This document shows, one piece after another, positions 49,268 through 59,768 of a stretch of DNA of 64,000 nucleotides. How positions within the stretch are numbered: the stretch's first letter is position 1; every line of letters starts with the position of its first letter. This DNA is from Siphonodentalium dalli. Its lineage: Eukaryota > Mollusca > Scaphopoda > Gadilida > Siphonodentaliidae. The stretch covers positions 41,297,797 through 41,361,796 of the forward strand of contig CP136061.1 in assembly GCA_032622095.1 (NCBI GenBank). The letters run 5' to 3'. The translations under genes were made by a program, and so were the position numbers. The notes below the pieces were generated by a model. The model saw only the letters and a program-made list of their open reading frames with translations. It searched no databases and had not been told where the DNA came from.

Positions 49268-50124
49268 TGATGTGGTTAGTTAATTTGGTTTTCTCATCGG
49301 TTGGCCATAACACGACGTTCCCAGTTTAAATATAAACATATCTAACTCGGAGTTCAAGACGACTAATCGGATTTAACACCAAATTAAGCAAAATGTCATA
49401 ATATTGAGGTGCTGGTGGGGAAATATCGGAGGAATTGTACATTGTGTGATAAAAGCATGGAACTTTGCACAAACGTGTAGGCCCTCCCACTGAATGATTT
49501 TGATGATTTTCATCCAACTTGGTTGGCATGGCAACAGTGGCCGCCACCTTGTGTTTTTGGCAAACACGTAAGACAATATCCGAAGTTCCGAGCGCATAAA
49601 ACATGAATATTAATTGCAGTAAAAATTACTAGTAACACAGTCATCGCGAATGGGATTAATTGGCTGATTAGTTCCTGGCACATAAAACGTAATATTGGAT
49701 GGTGTAGGAGAAACATTGAAAGCAGATATATCCCTGACTATTACTGGTTAAACCCTTCACTAGAAAAAGTTTTATGGACTCCTTGCGATTGAAAATATAC
49801 CAATATTGAAGAACGTAAGCATTTATTTGAAACATGTATTTAAAGAATACAACTAAGATAGTACACTGATCTATCCATGTGAATTTATATACACGTATTT
49901 CCGTATACATAGATATATGCTTGTGTGCACATATATGTATACAGTATGCATATGATATATTTATATAAGTATTACATACAATTTATTATGTATGGACATG
50001 TTATTCATACCAATGTACATAGTGTATATATGTTATTATGCATGTTCCACATTAATTTGTGGCTTTTCGCATTAAACTCATTCATTCAGATGTCTTACCC
50101 CTGATCAATAACAGAAAATAAGAT
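49268..50124. other. No gene seen
   Basis: AT-rich sequence leading into the large minisatellite. The last 40 bases before it contain AAACTCATTCATTCAG. Confidence 0.4.
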
Positions 50125-53100
50125 TGAGAATGGAGAGTTTATAGTGTTGACACGAGAATGGAGAGTTTATAGTGTTGAGAATGGGAGAGTTTATAGTGTT
50201 GAGAATGGGAGAGTTTATAGTGTTGACACGAGAATGGGAGAGTTTATAGTGTTGACACGAGAATGGGAGAGTTTATAGTGTTGACACGAGAATGGAGAGT
50301 TTATAGTGTTGACACGAGAATGGGAGAGTTTATAGTGTTGACACGAGAATGGAGAGTTTATAGTGTTGAGAATGGGAGAGTTTATAGTGTTGAGAATGGG
50401 AGAGTTTATAGTGTTGAGAATGGGAGAGTTTATAGTGTTGAGAATGGAGAGTTTACAGTGTTGAGAATGGGAGAGTTTATAGTGTTGAGAATGGGAGAGT
50501 TTATAGTGTTGAGAATGGGAGAGTTTATAGTGTTGACACGAGAATGGGAGAGTTTATAGTGTTGACACGAGAATGGGAGAGTTTATAGTGTTGACACGAG
50601 AATGGGAGAGTTTATAGTGTTGACACGAGAATGGGAGAGTTTATAGTGTTGACACGAGAATGGGAGAGTTTATAGTGTTGACACGAGAATGGGAGAGTTT
50701 ATAGTGTTGAGAATGGGAGAGTTTATAGTGTTGAGAATGGGAGAGTTTATAGTGTTGAGAATGGGAGAGTTTATAGTGTTGAGAATGGGAGAGTTTATAG
50801 TGTTGAGAATGGGAGAGTTTATAGTGTTGAGACGAGAATGGGAGAGTTTATAGTGTTGAGAATGGAGAGTTTACAGTGTTGAGAATGGGAGAGTTTATAG
50901 TGTTGAAAATGGGAGAGTTTATAGTGTTGAGAATGGGAGAGTTTATAGTGTTGAGAATGGGAGAGTTTATAGTGTTGAGACGAGAATGGGAGAGTTTATA
51001 GTGTTGAGAATGGAGAGTTTACAGTGTTGAGAATGGGAGAGTTTATTGTGTTGAAAATGGGAGAGTTTATAGTGTTGAGAATGGAGAGTTTACAGTGTTG
51101 AGAATGGGAGAGTTTATAGTGTTGAGAATGGGAGAGTTTATAGTGTTGAGAATGGGAGAGTTTATAATGTTGACACGAGAATGGGAGAGTTTATAGTGTT
51201 GAAAATGGGAGAGTTTATAGTGTTGACACGAGAATGGGAGAGTTTATAGTGTTGAGAATGGAGAGTTTATAGTGTTGAGAATGGGAGAGTTTATAGTGTT
51301 GAGAATGGGAGAGTTTATAGTGTTGAGAATGGGAGAGTTTATAGTGTTGACACGAGAATGGGAGAGTTTATAGTGTTGAGAATGGGAGAGTTTATAGTGT
51401 TGAGAATGGGAGAGTTTATAGTGTTGAGAATGGGAGAGTTTATAGTGTTGAGAATGGGAGAGTTTATAGTGTTGAGAATGGAGAGTTTATAGTGTTGAGA
51501 ATGGGAGAGTTTATAGTGTTGAGAATGGGAGAGTTTATAGTGTTGAGAATGGGAGAGTTTATAGTGTTGAGAATGGGAGAGTTTATAGTGTTGAGAATGG
51601 GAGAGTTTATAGTGTTGAGAATGGGAGAGTTTATAGTGTTGAGAATGGGAGAGTTTATAGTGTTGACACGAGAATGGGAGAGTTTATAGTGTTGACACGA
51701 GAATGGGAGAGTTTATAGTGTTGACACGAGAATGGGAGAGTTTATAGTGTTGACACGAGAATGGGAGAGTTTATAGTGTTGACACGAGAATGGGAGAGTT
51801 TATAGTGTTGAGAATGGGAGAGTTTATAGTGTTGAGAATGGGAGAGTTTATAGTGTTGAGAATGGGAGAGTTTATAATGTTGACACGAGAATGGGGAGTT
51901 TATAGTGTTGAAAATGGGAGAGTTTATAGTGTTGAGAATGGGAGAGTTTATAATGTTGACACGAGAATGGGAGAGTTTATAGTGTTGAAAATGGGAGAGT
52001 TTATAGTGTTGAGAATGGGAGAGTTTATAGTGTTGAGAATGGGAGAGTTTATAGTGTTGAGAATGGGAGAGTTTATAGTGTTGAGAATGGGAGAGTTTAT
52101 AGTGTTGAGAATGGGAGAGTTTATAGTGTTGACACGAGAATGGGAGAGTTTATAGTGTTGACACGAGAATGGGAGAGTTTATAGTGTTGACACGAGAATG
52201 GGAGAGTTTATAGTGTTGACACGAGAATGGGAGAGTTTATAGTGTTGACACGAGAATGGGAGAGTTTATAGTGTTGACACGAGAATGGGAGAGTTTATAG
52301 TGTTGAGAATGGGAGAGTTTATAGTGTTGAGAATGGGAGAGTTTATAGTGTTGAGAATGGGAGAGTTTATAATGTTGACACGAGAATGGGAGAGTTTATA
52401 GTGTTGAAAATGGGAGAGTTTATAGTGTTGAGAATGGGAGAGTTTATAATGTTGACACGAGAATGGGAGAGTTTATAGTGTTGAAAATGGGAGAGTTTAT
52501 AGTGTTGAGAATGGGAGAGTTTATAGTGTTGAGAATGGGAGAGTTTATAGTGTTGAGAATGGGAGAGTTTATAGTGTTGAGAATGGGAGAGTTTGTAATG
52601 TTGACACGAGAATGGGAGAGTTTATAGTGTTGAAAATGGGAGAGTTTATAGTGTTGAGAATGGGAGAGTTTATAATGTTGACACGAGAATGGGAGAGTTT
52701 ATAGTGTTGAGAATGGGAGAGTTTATAATGTTGACACGAGAATGGGAGAGTTTATAGTGTTGAAAATGGGAGAGTTTATAGTGTTGACACGAGAATGGGA
52801 GAGTTTATAGTGTTGAGAATGGAGAGTTTATAGTGTTGAGAATGGAAGAGTTTATAGTGTTGAGAATGGGAGAGTTTATAGTGTTGAGAATGGGAGAGTT
52901 TATAGTGTTGAGAATGGGAGAGTTTATAGTGTTGAGAATGGGAGAGTTTATAGTGTTGAGAATGGGAGAGTTTATAGTGTTGACACGAGAATGGGAGAGT
53001 TTATAGTGTTGACACGAGAATGGGAGAGTTTATAGTGTTGACACGAGAATGGGAGAGTTTATAGTGTTGACACGAGAATGGGAGAGTTTATAGTGTTTAC

Positions 53101-55625
53101 ACGAGAATGGGAGAGTTTATAGTGTTGACACGGGAATGGGAGAGTTTATAGTGTTGAGAATGGGAGAGTTTATAGTGTTGAGAATGGGAGAGTTTATAGT
53201 GTTGAGAATGGGAGAGTTTATAGTGTTGAGAATGGGAGAGTTTATAGTGTTGACACGAGAATGGGAGAGTTTATAGTGTTGAGAATGGGAGAGTTTATAG
53301 TGTTGAGACGAGAATGGGAGAGTTTATAGTGTTGAGAATGGAGAGTTTACAGTGTTGAGAATGGGAGAGTTTATAGTGTTGAAAATGGGAGAGTTTATAG
53401 TGTTGAGAATGGGAGAGTTTGTAGTGTTGAGAATGGGAGAGTTTATAGTGTTGAGACGAGAATGGGAGAGTTTATAGTGTTGAGAATGGAGAGTTTACAG
53501 TTTTGAGAATGGGAGAGTTTATAGTGTTGAGAATGGAGAGTTTATAGTGTTGAGAATGGAGAGTTTATAGTGTTGAAAATGGGAGAGTTTATAGTGTTGA
53601 GAATGGAGAGTTTACAGTGTTGAGAATGGGAGAGTTTATAGTGTTGAGAATGGGAGAGTTTATAGTGTTGAGAATGGGAGAGTTTATAATGTTGACACGA
53701 GAATGGGAGAGTTTATAGTGTTGAAAATGGGAGAGTTTATAGTGTTGACACGAGAATGGGAGAGTTTATAGTGTTGAGAATGGAGAGTTTATAGTGTTGA
53801 GAATGGGAGAGTTTATAGTGTTGAGAATGGGAGAGTTTATAGTGTTGAGAATGGGAGAGTTTATAGTGTTGAGAATGGAGAGTTTATAGTGTTGAGAATG
53901 GGAGAGTTTATAGTGTTGAGAATGGGAGAGTTTATAGTGTTGAGAATGGAGAGTTTATAGTGTTGAGAATGGGAGAGTTTATAGTGTTGAAAATGGGAGA
54001 GTTTATAGTGTTGAGAATGGAGAGTTTACAGTGTTGAGAATGGGAGAGTTTATAGTGTTGAGAATGGAGAGTTTATAGTGTTGAGAATGGGAGAGTTTAT
54101 AGTGTTGAGAATGGGAGAGTTTATAGTGTTGAGAATGGAGAGTTTATAGTGTTGAGAATGGGAGAGTTTATAGTGTTGAAAATGGGAGAGTTTATAGTGT
54201 TGAGAATGGGAGAGTTTATAGTGTTGAGAATGGGAGAGTTTATAGTGTTGACACGAGAATGGAGAGTTTATAGTGTTGAGAATGGAGAGTTTATAGTGTT
54301 GAGAATGGGAGAGTTTATAGTGTTGAGAATGGAGAGTTTATAGTGTTGAGAATGGGAGAGTTTATAGTGTTGAGAATGGGAGAGTTTATAGTGTTGAGAA
54401 TGGGAGAGTTTATAGTGTTGAGAATGGGAGAGTTTATAGTGTTGAGAATGGAGAGTTTATAGTGTTGAGAATGGGAGAGTTTATAGTGTTGAGAATGGGA
54501 GAGTTTATAGTGTTGAGAATGGGAGAGTTTATAATGTTGAGAATGGGAGAGTTTATAGTGTTGAGAATGGGAGAGTTTATAGTGTTGAGAATGGGAGAGT
54601 TTATAGTGTTGACACGAGAATGGGAGAGTTTATAGTGTTGAGAATGGGAGAGTTTATAGTGTTGAGAATGGGAGAGTTTATAGTGTTGAGAATGGGAGAG
54701 TTTATAGTGTTGAGAATGGGAGAGTTTATAGTGTTGAGAATGGAGAGTTTATAGTGTTGAGAATGGGAGAGTTTATAGTGTTGAGAATGGGAGAGTTTAT
54801 AGTGTTGAGAATGGAGAGTTTATAGTGTTGAGAATGGGAGAGTTTATAGTGTTGAGAATGGGAGAGTTTATAGTGTTGAGAATGGAGAGTTTATAGTGTT
54901 GACACGAGAATGGGAGAGTTTATAGTGTTGAGAATGGAGAGTTTATAGTGTTGAGAATGGAGAGTTTATAGTGTTGACACGAGAATGGGAGAGTTTATAG
55001 TGTTGAGAATGGGAGAGTTTATAGTGTTGAGAATGGGAGAGTTTATAGTGTTGACACGAGAATGGGAGAGTTTATATTGTTGAGAATGGAGAGTTTATAG
55101 TGTTGAGAATGGGAGAGTTTATAGTGTTGAGAATGGAGAGTTTATAGTGTTGAGAATGGAGAGTTTATAGTGTTGAGAATGGGAGAGTTTATAGTGTTGA
55201 CACGAGAATGGGAGAGTTTATAGTGTTGAGAATGGGAGAGTTTATAGTGTTGAGAATGGGAGAGTTTATAGTGTTGAGAATGGGAGAGTTTATAGTGTTG
55301 AGAATGGAGAGTTTATAGTGTTGAGAATGGGAGAGTTTATAGTGTTGAGAATGGGAGAGTTTATAGTGTTGAGAATGGAGAGTTTATAGTGTTGAGAATG
55401 GGAGAGTTTATAGTGTTGACACGAGAATGGGAGAGTTTATAGTGTTGACACGAGAATGGGAGAGTTTATAGTGTTGACACGAGAATGGGAGAGTTTATAA
55501 TGTTGACACGAGAATGGGAGAGTTTATAGTGTTGTCACGAGAATGGGAGAGTTTATAGTGTTGACACGAGAATGGGAGAATTTATAGTGTTGACACGAGA
55601 ATGGGAGAGTTTATAGTGTTGACAC
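50125..55625 (+). repeat. 5.5-kb minisatellite, 23/24/29-bp units
   Basis: The basic unit is GAGAATGGGAGAGTTTATAG followed by TGTT (24 bp). Two other length classes alternate with it: 23 bp (GAATGGAGAG, one G lost) and 29 bp (GACAC inserted before GAGAATGGG). Point variants (TTTACAG, TTTATAATG, TTGAAAATG, TTGAGACGAG) occur in clusters. Open frames spelling MGEFIVLR repeats arise wherever several 24-bp units are consecutive. They break at every 23- or 29-bp unit and are not genes. Both flanks are unique sequence. Confidence 0.97.
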
Positions 55626-56950
55626 TGGTTTCATTATTTGTCTGATTATTGATTGCGCACATTTATTGTGACACACATTTACAACAGTAAAGAAGACAGG
55701 AAACATACAACATTGTAGATGCACAGGTGTTTGGAGAACAAGTAGTAAACTTAAGGAAACCCATCTCCCTTGAACAAAAACAGCCACCAATGAGTGTGGC
55801 GATTGTGTACAGGAAGTTATACACCAAAATTCGTTTCGGGAATGATGCCCAGGTTGTCTTTTATGGTGATTAACGCAAAAGGGGCACCAACCCAGACGAA
55901 GTATTACAGATAATGTGTCAGTGCATTCTCTTATATGCATGTGTCTCAAAGGGAGCCTCGAATATATACGAAAATGCACTGACTTAGTCACAGGGTTTTC
56001 GCAAAATTTCAGGAAGCTCCAGAGTCAAAGAAGTTGTTGTAGCTTAAGTAGTCTAATTATTGAAGTGATGGACGACGATATCTGTCATACAAATGAGAAA
56101 AAACCGTCATTTGGAATATAAACCGACCCTCATATTCAGAGAATAATTCGCTTCGAAGCATCCTAAATATTTCACGTATTCAGCTATGGAAGTTAAGCAC
56201 TTAAATATGTATCCAACATATATATGATAACCATTGTAACGATATCACTGTAGTTGAGATTCGGTCACTTTACTGTTAATTAAATGTATTATACTAATAA
56301 ATTTATGCGTCGCACATTGTATTATCTTATATATATATATATATATATATATAAAACGCTCTTTATTTCTACCATATCAGGACTTGACTAAAACTCAATG
56401 CTCTTTTCTGTTCAATGCGTCTTTCTGGGACATAGCATGCTCGTTGAAAGATTGAAGTATTTATCGACTTACTTCGATTCCTGGGAAACACGCAACAGCG
56501 AAACTTATTATGTGTATTTTGGAGCGCAAACCGGAATGTGGATTTAATTAACTTCATTCTCTGATACTTTGTTTTCGTTGTATATGTATACTTGTTAGTG
56601 ACTCTCGTTCGCGGAATCATTCACGATTGTTTACCAGCGATTGTTTACCAGCGATGAATCTGGGACACAAGGATTGAGTATTTACGTTTTTGCTTACTTC
56701 AGATGCACGTCGTGTTTTACGAAATGGTACAACCGATGTCGTTGAAATATTAGTTGAAAGTGACAATTTTTCAGCGGGCGTATTGGCCGAATAATATCTA
56801 TGAGATTGAAGTAGCGACACGATATAGCGACAAATAATATGTATGTATATATAAATGCCAACGGTTTGATTTGACACAATTGTCAAAACCACCTCTTTGT
56901 AAGTCAATATATGGCCACCAAAAACCTACTAATGGGCTGTTAGTTAGGCT
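55626..56950. other. No gene; damaged hairpin MITE at 55905-56030 and TA microsatellite
   Basis: Bases 55917-55983 are a degraded hairpin module, followed by CACAGGGTTTTCGCAAAATT as in the TTAACCCTTTCA family. Bases 56328-56353 are a TA dinucleotide run. It is followed at 56354-56412 by the ACGCTCTTTATTTCTACCAT / ATCAGG motif shared with the elements to the right. Confidence 0.6.
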
Positions 56951-57453
56951 TTAAAGGTACGGTTGGCCTTGGCGGTGGGTATCCTGTGAAAATATTTCCA
57001 CCCGTCAAAAGCCGCCACAAACAGAAAGAACAACAAAATGTAGACATACTTTGTCCGTATACAAATAAGAAATATCGCATAAAGAGTATGTTATTGTCAT
57101 ATATTTGACCATTGTTATGTAAACAAACGCATAAAAAGTAACTTTTCTGGTGTTTGTTTATATTATGATGGTAAACATAAAGAGCGTTCTTTGTTGGTGT
57201 ATTCCTGATATGGAACGAATAAAGAGCGATTATGCCATTTGTGTGTGATTAGCCAGCAGCATTGTGCTGTCTTCTGTAACACAATCAGGCTATTGCTTAG
57301 GTAAAATATAGTAAATCTTTATGATAGCATGCTGTTTACGCGATGGTCATGGTATATATGAACGAAACTGTATGCGTTTTAATGTTTTTTCTGTTTACGG
57401 TGATTGGAACAAATATGAATATTTTCGACAACTAAGGCCTCACGTGCCTTTAA
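56951..57453. mobile_element. TTAA-flanked 499-bp element, first of two in tandem
   Basis: Starts TTAAAGGTACGGTTGGCCTT and ends GGCCTCACGTGCCTTTAA. The ends are imperfect inverted repeats over about 65 bases, meeting at AAACAGAAA. The interior holds AAAGAGCGTTCTTTG and ATTCCTGATATGGAACG. TTAA at 56951-56954 and 57450-57453 fits a piggyBac-type target site. There is no transposase frame. Confidence 0.85.
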
Positions 57454-57952
57454 AGGTACGGTTGGCCTTGGCGGTGGGTATCCTGTGAAAATATTTCCAC
57501 CCGTCAAAAGCCGCCACAAACAGAAAGAACAACAAAATGTAGACATACTTTGTCCGTATACAAATAAGAAATATCGCATAAAGAGTATGTTATTGTCATA
57601 TATTTGACCATTGTTATGTAAACAAACGCATAAAAAGTAACTTTTCTGGTGTTTGTTTATATTATGATGGTAAACATAAAGAGCGTTCTTTGTTGGTGTA
57701 TTCCTGATATGGAACGAATAAAGAGCGATTATGCCATTTGTGTGTGATTAGCCAGCAGCATTGTGCTGTCTTCTGTAACACAATCAGGCTATTGCTTAGG
57801 TAAAATATAGTAAATCTTTATGATAGCATGCTGTTTACGCGATGGTCATGGTATATATGAACGAAACTGTATGCGTTTTAATGTTTTTTCTGTTTACGGT
57901 GATTGGAACAAATATGAATATTTTCGACAACTAAGGCCTCACGTGCCTTTAA
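57450..57952. mobile_element. TTAA-flanked 499-bp element, second tandem copy
   Basis: By eye, identical to 56951-57453 base for base. The two copies share the middle TTAA (57450-57453), and the right TTAA is 57949-57952. The plus-strand open frame 57820-58116 and the minus-strand frame 57379-57579 run across copy edges and are not genes. Confidence 0.85.
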
Positions 57953-59167
57953 ATGTTTTCTGTTGTGGAAAACGTTCCAATGGAAATTTTAGTGTCAAAT
58001 CAGACCGTGCATTTGACGATTACCTTTCTAATTTGACCACAACGCCACCATATGTAGGCCTACGTAAAAACCAATCCCTATCTGAACGTGTTCTACCCCA
58101 GACAATAATCCAATAATCCCACCAATATGATGTTTCGATGCCAGATATTCCGACTTTTAAAGGAGGAAGTTCTAACATATTATGAATATTTTGTCAGCGC
58201 AGAAACAGTTAAATGATCCCCTCTGATAACGAGCGTTCATGTTTTGTCACCAAGAAGTGGTATGTAATAAAGAGCGTTTTCATTATGCCATTGATCGTTT
58301 GCGATCGTTTTCGACTTATTGCTTATGGATGATAATAACACGGTGGGGAATCACGTGGTTTCGAGGTTGGTTGGTGGTACCACACATTCAAAATGTGCAA
58401 ACGCACAAAAATATAATATATGAGGAACTGACACAAAACATAGCATTTCGACTGTACAGAACATATGCTCTTTTAGTTTTAAAGCAAGTTGATACCTTAT
58501 TTTTTTCGTAGTTTTCTATAACATTCTGACCAAAGTTGCCAGTTGGAGGTTCGTGGATTGTACAAGTCCATATAAATATATATAGGAGAATCCTTCGACT
58601 GACAACTTTGGTCAGTATGTTGAAACAAACAATTATACGTATGGACACAAGTGAGGTATCAGCATGTTTTAAAAATAGTATATAATGTGATCGTAGCTGC
58701 CAAGATACTATGTAATATGTTATTATCCTAGTTTATTACATTTTTCCTCGTTTCTGGTCGCGTTTGCGATCGCCTCGACCATTTCGAATGCTTGATATCA
58801 ACTCATCAACTCAATATCAAATTTGTTTTCTTCCAATTTACTTGGGAACGAACCTACGGCTCTTAGTGCCCGTATTACATAACGGAAATTGACATTTAAA
58901 CCTCACAATCAGTACTTATTTTTAATTCACAAGTCAATGTAAAGTCCATTCATTCCTCCACTCGAAACCACGTGATTTCCCCGCCGTGAATAGATGCTGT
59001 GGATTTTGGCAATTCTCGTGTCATGCGAATGATTTAGATTTCAAATATTTTTTTCTTTTTCTTTTTCACGGTAAGCGGGAAATTGGCTGAGCAAATTTTG
59101 ACAAATGTAAAATGATGGATTTATGATGTCAAATCGCACAGGGCATCTTTAGGAAGGACATGTAGAG
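57953..59167. other. Probable LHFPL intron or 3' flank; inverted repeat pair and hairpin
   Basis: Bases 58337-58369 (GGGGAATCACGTGGTTTCGA) are repeated in inverse form at 58957-58990. A shorter hairpin (CTGACCAAAGTTGCCAGT with ACTGACAACTTTGGTCAG) spans 58524-58616. A AATAAAGAGCGTTTTC motif at 58263 belongs to the TTAA family. The following LHFPL exon was not found. Confidence 0.5.
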
Positions 59168-59175
59168 TTACATAC

Positions 59176-59412
59176 CTTTGCTTGGCGATCCATATACTTC
59201 TGGAAGTAGTCTGGCTTGTTTTTCAGCTAGAACCAGAGCGAGCGTGGCGAGTATGATTCCATCGAAGACAAGCACGATAGCGAGGATGTAGGCCCATCTA
59301 ATGCCACACTTATCTATGTTATACGAGTCGGCCTCGGTACCGCAAACCTCTCGAATATCGTCATGGTCCCAACCACTCGGGTATATCACACACCCAATCA
59401 GGAGGCAGATAG
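59176..59412 (-). CDS. LHFPL-family tetraspan membrane protein, internal exon
   Basis: A 237-bp exon, phase 1 on both sides, bounded by the acceptor TGTATTTCAG (59413) and donor GTATGT (59175-59170). It encodes ICLLIGCVIYPSGWDHDDIR, then EVCGTEADSYNIDKCGIRWA, then YILAIVLVFDGIILATLALV, then LAEKQARLLPEVYGSPSK. The end of one membrane span is followed by an extracellular loop with the YPxGWDxxxxRxxCG and CxxRWAYILA motifs and two cysteines, then the last membrane span and a short cytoplasmic tail, as in LHFPL3/4/5. Vertebrate members act as auxiliary subunits, for example of hair-cell mechanotransduction or GABA-A receptors; the role here is unknown. Residues upstream of the acceptor in the open frame (MGALSFSLCIS) are intron. 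The first exon should be further right and was not found in the window. Confidence 0.88.
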
Positions 59413-59768
59413 CTGAAATACAGAGTGAGAAACTTAAAGCACCCATTCAGGAGGCATATGGCTCAAATACACAGTGGGAAACTTAAAACACCCAACCAGG
59501 AGGCATATAGCTGAAATACACAGTGGCAAATCTAAAGCACCCAACCAAGAGGCATATATCTGAAATACACAGTGGCAAATCTAAAGCACCCAACCAAGAG
59601 GCATATAGCTCAAATATACAGTTGGAAACTTAAATAAAACATCAGGAGGCATATAGCTCAAATACACAGTGATAAATTTAAAGCACTCGATCAGGAGGCA
59701 GATAGCTGAAATACACAAGTGGGAAACTTAAAGCACCCAATCAGAAGGCAGATAGCTGGAATACACGA
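59391..59768. repeat. 49-bp tandem array made from the LHFPL exon's 3' splice site
   Basis: Eight units (about 59391, 59440, 59489, 59538, 59587, 59639, 59683, 59733), mostly 49 bp. The first unit overlaps the exon. Each unit holds the last 27 bases of the intron, with its pyrimidine-rich TTTCAG, and the first 22 bases of the exon. On the minus strand a CAG acceptor remains at units 1, 3, 4, 7 and 8 (CAG ending at 59413, 59511, 59560, 59706 and 59756). Units 2, 5 and 6 have GAG instead. Confidence 0.9.

Follow-up and report, generated by a model that had tools for sequence, protein, structure and literature searches.

The second exon of an LHFPL gene encoded on the minus strand is preceded by a 49-bp tandem array in which the 3′ splice site of the exon is repeated. 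This array is very probably a "mirage", namely an ordinary minisatellite whose founding unit by chance spanned a splice acceptor, with the exon-adjacent copy, unit 1, still in use. The array lies in the window, the whole 64,000-nucleotide stretch of DNA analysed (C1:41297797-41361796), taken from a 2.23-Gb genome of nine contigs. The comparisons described below are best read as a mirage tolerated in a minisatellite-rich genome, the exon-adjacent acceptor being both intact and the strongest of the series. Coordinates of the exon, the repeat units and the neighbouring repeats are shown in Table 1.

Table 1. Features of the LHFPL exon 2 region (positions in the window)
Feature	Start	End	Strand	Acceptor (last intron base)	Remarks
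LHFPL exon 2	59176	59412	-		237 nt; PF10242 matches, gapless LHFPL4 match
Unit 1	59391	59439	-	CAG (59413)	authentic acceptor plus first 22 nt of exon 2
Unit 2	59440	59488	-	GAG (59462)	
Unit 3	59489	59537	-	CAG (59511)	
Unit 4	59538	59586	-	CAG (59560)	
Unit 5	59587	59634	-	GAG (59609)	
Unit 6	59635	59683	-	GAG (59657)	exon-derived part altered at its end
Unit 7	59684	59733	-	CAG (59706)	
Unit 8	59734	59766	-	CAG (59756)	partial, ~33 nt within array
30-bp minisatellite	59886	60447			beside the array in the LHFPL intron, unrelated unit; two Tandem Repeats Finder rows joined
68-bp satellite	62608	63735			same LHFPL intron; dispersed genome-wide

Exon 1 of the gene (L001, C1:41362215-41362556) is located just outside the window and matches the first two thirds of the LHFPL family. 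Exon 2 codes for TICLLIGCVIYPSGWD...GSPSK, with its first base supplied by exon 1, and is directly followed by a GTATGT donor beginning at 59175. The joined exons, in a query one residue short, match PF10242 with 178.7 bits (profile positions 2-181 of 181; cut-off 25.2), and by this match over most of the profile the gene is assigned to the LHFPL tetraspan family. Two other LHFPL exons of the genome, L010 (C4:283408250) and L015 (C4:283443563), are ~35 kb apart and identical in their printed stretches, and are probably the products of a recent duplication. Profile searches of the genome gave 17 innexin matches, 12 of which score 287-354 bits, and 10 C1q matches; mollusc haemocyanin (PF14830) and arthropod cuticle protein (PF00379) gave none, a negative result that is not proof of absence in searches of this kind. 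The genome is taken to be that of an invertebrate other than amphioxus.

The window contains several further repeats. The period of the 30-bp minisatellite keeps frames of 153-182 codons open, as seen in L003. The 68-bp satellite has at least 166 matches in the genome, those listed falling on all nine contigs, and a translated stretch similar to it was seen in L004. Downstream of the LHFPL exon, a 24-bp array of 218 copies (50124-55622) displays a very strong skew of G over C (0.74-0.88 in 2-kb windows), and a 499-bp unit occurs twice with 100% identity at 56949-57953, reflecting either a recent duplication or a doubling in the assembly.

Tandem Repeats Finder delimits the 49-bp array at 59391-59766 (7.7 copies, 84% matches, score 484), so that the start given in the preliminary description stands while the end, previously set at 59768, moves to 59766. 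The array had also been counted as eight units; eight acceptor copies are indeed present, but only seven units are full, with lengths of 49, 49, 49, 49, 48, 49 and 50 nt from unit 1 to unit 7, and the eighth is partial. In each full unit, 26-28 intron nucleotides are joined to 22 exon nucleotides, and the unit sequences bear out the original account of the repeat as the end of the intron plus the first 22 bases of the exon. Reading the eight copies on the minus strand likewise returned the five CAG and three GAG acceptors initially reported, with the AG kept in 8/8. Adjacent units are homogenised, units 3 and 4 being 96% identical and units 4 and 5 98% identical in the other unit phase, and units 2-8 differ mutually by 2-29%. 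Unit 8 is 64-78% identical to units 1-7, a comparison in which its intron half is flank sequence; in the other unit phase it is 78-88% identical to the others, and unit 6 is the most diverged (71-84%).

The position of the authentic junction was addressed by joining the two exons. Exon 1 ends in GGCA/GTGAGT (a donor chosen by consensus), and its join to unit 1 yields RICGWIQVIGTICLLIGCVIYPSGWD, which aligns without gaps to LHFPL4 (PDB code 9faj, chain L; 212.9 bits, E 4.2e-62), compared with 210.3 bits and a one-residue gap for a join one residue shorter. In addition, four distinct paralogous exons (L004, L007, L010 and L013) display an acceptor that agrees in phase and likewise lies nine codons ahead of the YPxGW motif. 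These junctions were read by eye; L015, whose printed stretch is that of L010, was not counted separately, and L011, L012 and L014, in which the YPxGW motif was not seen, were left out of the junction alignment. By these sequence comparisons unit 1 is identified as the authentic junction. The LHFPL4 alignment and the junction common to the paralogs agree with the earlier proposal that the array derives from a functional LHFPL acceptor, and on this basis the exon start is very likely older than the array and the array very likely made from it.

We infer that a founding segment, in which the final ~27 nt of the LHFPL intron adjoined 22 nt from the start of exon 2, was duplicated in tandem, and that slippage or unequal exchange would have led to its expansion and partial homogenisation, the remaining copies decaying as intron sequence. 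A clean head-to-tail duplication was not recovered because nothing resembling the intron-derived part of the unit could be detected in the flank upstream of unit 8 (shuffle p 0.87 and 0.82), and the upstream 16-17 nt missing from unit 8 are without a recognisable counterpart in that flank.

With the phase fixed by exon 1, reading through exon 2 is achieved from unit 1 only. Units 2-8 each lead to a stop 185-515 nt ahead of the exon 2 donor, after 49-343 added nucleotides; for the upstream CAG copies the addition would amount to 98-343 nt, the stop codon included. The reading from unit 3 originally described, ICLLVGC followed by a TAA, is reproduced by the translation TICLLVGCFKFPTVYLSHMPPEWVL, which ends at that stop, and the truncation predicted for distal acceptors extends to all seven upstream copies. 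Transcripts spliced to the upstream copies are expected to be subject to nonsense-mediated decay; rare splicing to upstream CAG copies would generate stop-bearing transcripts that would be removed in this way.

The strength of the acceptor copies was estimated with a model based on 18 acceptor sites from the genome, 14 belonging to myosin-head loci and four to the LHFPL paralogs. These were hand-picked from frame and AG, and 14/18 come from related myosin exons. Thirty myosin loci gave the 14 used: L017, L035 and L045 had no candidate, the best candidates of L018, L022 and L026 were judged not to be junctions, and ten near-duplicates (L028, L029, L031, L033, L034, L037 and L039-L042) were dropped; in L030, L032 and L043 the AG used differs from the top pick of the script. 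Scored over intron positions, unit 1 reaches 11.3 and units 2-8 reach 4.8, 6.8, 6.8, 5.0, 3.8, 7.5 and 2.5, respectively. Unit 1 ranked top in 1972 of 2000 bootstraps of the model, and remained so when three exon bases were added (11.3 vs 2.2-7.5). The base preceding the AG in the model acceptors is C in 13/18 and T in 5/18, with GAG found in 0/18. Since true acceptors score as low as 1.6 when left out of the model in turn (range 1.6-13.7), units 3, 4 and 7 could be usable weakly. A scanning model would need a branch point within unit 1 itself, because an AAG or TAG lies ~20 nt upstream of the acceptor in units 1-5 and 7. Splicing most likely still occurs at unit 1, as judged from its being the strongest acceptor in the model and the only copy yielding protein.

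The frequency of arrays at exon boundaries in this genome was surveyed at 30 myosin-head and 30 kinesin loci (120 exon-match ends), giving a rough rate, since the myosin set contains many near-identical paralogs and the end of a match marks the end of an exon only approximately. An array runs across an exon-match end in 3/60 loci, all on the donor side, and no acceptor-side end (0/60) lies inside an array. They are the myosin paralogs L022 (C4:288891502-288891705) and L024 (C4:291684522-291684719), with a 67-bp, 2.1-copy repeat across the donor AAAAG/GTAGG, and the kinesin locus L079 (C1:88002051-88002194), with a 60-bp, 3.1-copy repeat whose copies end in AATAAG/GTATAA; counting the paralogs once leaves two independent donor-side events. 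Self-comparison revealed further short matches in L061, L067, L070 and L072, where the boundary survey called no tandem array. Arrays with a period of at least 20 cover 9144 of 165600 random flank points (5.5%), so that 6.6 of the 120 boundaries would be expected inside arrays from density vs the three observed. Boundary arrays are not enriched in this genome and, therefore, the location of the LHFPL array needs no special cause; together with the two donor-side cases, it suggests that boundary arrays arise as a side effect of a high density of minisatellites. Among the loci inspected, a 28-bp array was seen beside, but not across, the point where the L002 match begins, and numerous, closely similar matches to muscle-type myosin genes are clustered at C4:274219458-275508405.

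When the array was used as query against the DNA of the entire genome, at least one other place was recovered, on contig 9 (C9:7975885-7976131, L006:1501-1747), which is 79% identical. A 24-nt pattern allowing up to three mismatches returned 14 matches, eight in the LHFPL array, two in the contig 9 array and four at single sites, the latter all at three mismatches; the reversed control pattern returned two. Similarity between the contig 9 array and LHFPL exon 2 is confined to the first 22 nt of the exon. The contig 9 array looks like a daughter of the LHFPL array, because the exon part of the unit fits LHFPL4 and the paralog junction and the array was found at two places; it illustrates, on a small scale, the appearance of a genic minisatellite at a new place. 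Its flanks, ACCATTGCACAGA and ACCATTGCCCAGA, form a 13-bp repeat with 12/13 identical positions, a level reached by 0/5000 shuffled flanks, by 20/5000 random pairs of 30-base segments from five stretches of the window that avoid long arrays, and by 28/3000 random pairs when the long arrays of the window were also sampled. From ~20 bp past the 13-bp repeat, the right flank consists of a dispersed repeat. A search for the empty site with the flanks gave 42 matches, among which only the site itself covered both flanks. The five full contig 9 units best match LHFPL units 5, 2, 8, 7 and 6 (bootstrap 0.56-0.77), compared with the order 8 to 1 in the LHFPL array. This order falls in the best cyclic class, which holds 5/120 permutations (one cyclic order of 24), and may be a circular permutation of that in the LHFPL array. 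Both the flank repeat and the unit order would be accounted for by a circular intermediate that integrated with a target-site duplication, which is suggestive only; copying from an older, longer array would also account for them.

It might be argued that the array acts as a ladder of acceptors, in which unit 1 faces competition from the upstream CAG copies, which divert part of the pre-mRNA to decay, array length setting LHFPL output. Four decoy copies retain CAG, every upstream copy (7/7) gives a stop well ahead of the donor, and the scores of units 3, 4 and 7 (6.8-7.5) lie within the range of true acceptors. However, unit 1 is clearly the strongest in the model, unit 8, which is upstream-most and transcribed first, has the lowest score, three decoys carry GAG and arrays are not enriched at exon boundaries, while amphioxus mirages with AG/GT copies are reported without splicing disturbance (PMC3087553, PMC3902484). 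The functional ladder is thus an unsupported idea and an unlikely one. Slightly less likely still is its extension, in which a length-variable ladder tunes LHFPL dose and a unit moved away, probably in circular form, and founded the acceptor-bearing array on another chromosome with a target-site duplication.

The remaining explanations concern the origin of the array. Boundary copies could feed the birth of an exon or intron, a route put forward for amphioxus globins, and the anatomy is the same as in the published amphioxus model (PMC3087553), with repeated exon pieces in the units; intron positions arising by tandem duplication are also reported in Drosophila (PMC2891723). Such an intermediate in intron gain is very improbable for the LHFPL array, whose upstream copies all run into a stop in the exon 1 phase. 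An origin from a dispersed repeat, inserted at the exon and unrelated to its start, would account for a second array on contig 9, where 3.2 kb of sequence contained no match to the remainder of LHFPL exon 2, but ICLLIGC, encoded by the exon-derived part of the unit, is in gapless alignment with LHFPL4, this part begins at the junction common to the paralogs and the array was found at only two places, search counts being lower bounds; we regard this origin as hardly credible. Finally, tandem arrays are prone to assembly error and the exact copy number could be wrong. The divergence of units 2-8 and the diverged daughter array elsewhere nevertheless mean that false repetition of one sequence is no explanation, and an assembly artefact has only a minimal probability. 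The effect of copy number on splicing suggested in the preliminary description found no support, and the acceptor scores and the RT-PCR reported for amphioxus both favour normal splicing at unit 1.

The preliminary description regarded the expansion of a splice acceptor as uncommon, a view that appears overstated, with the kind already described as lancelet (amphioxus) "mirages" and two donor-side cases, though no acceptor-side one, among the 60 control loci of this genome. Similar to those mirages, the LHFPL unit extends across the exon-intron boundary (~27 nt of intron and 22 nt of exon), splice signals persist in many but not all copies and the units are homogenised within the cluster. The mirage of the amphioxus globin gene BflGb6 is reported as a tandem repeat of an intron 3′ end and the 5′ part of an exon, with a unit of 150-160 bp present in three or six copies in two haplotypes; there too, many but not all copies retain the splice signal and homogenisation in the cluster is partial (PMC3087553). 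In contrast, the LHFPL array has 7.7 copies of 49 bp and belongs to another gene and, apparently, another animal group. For the BflGb6 and Adh3 mirages, RT-PCR is reported to reveal undisturbed splicing (PMC3087553). The Adh3 mirages (Canestro et al. 2002, via PMC3087553 and PMC3902484) are described as boundary-spanning with short units of 10-72 bp, features shared by the LHFPL minisatellite, and as displaying length instability, somatic instability included (PMC3087553). Boundary cases in lancelet PGBD5, Adh and TnC are also mentioned (PMC3902484), of which PGBD5, again in another gene and animal, is a triplication of 108 bp (3 x 108 bp) and thus has fewer copies than the LHFPL array. Internal tandem repeats at exon-intron boundaries, able to change gene structure, are likewise reported in human segmental-duplication genes (PMC2812944); unlike the LHFPL array, these are described as recent, located within exons and at boundaries, and tied to novel introns. 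The LHFPL array adds to these systems a clear boundary-spanning minisatellite from an apparently non-amphioxus invertebrate, and such arrays constitute natural tests of spliceosome choice among near-identical acceptors and of gene tolerance.
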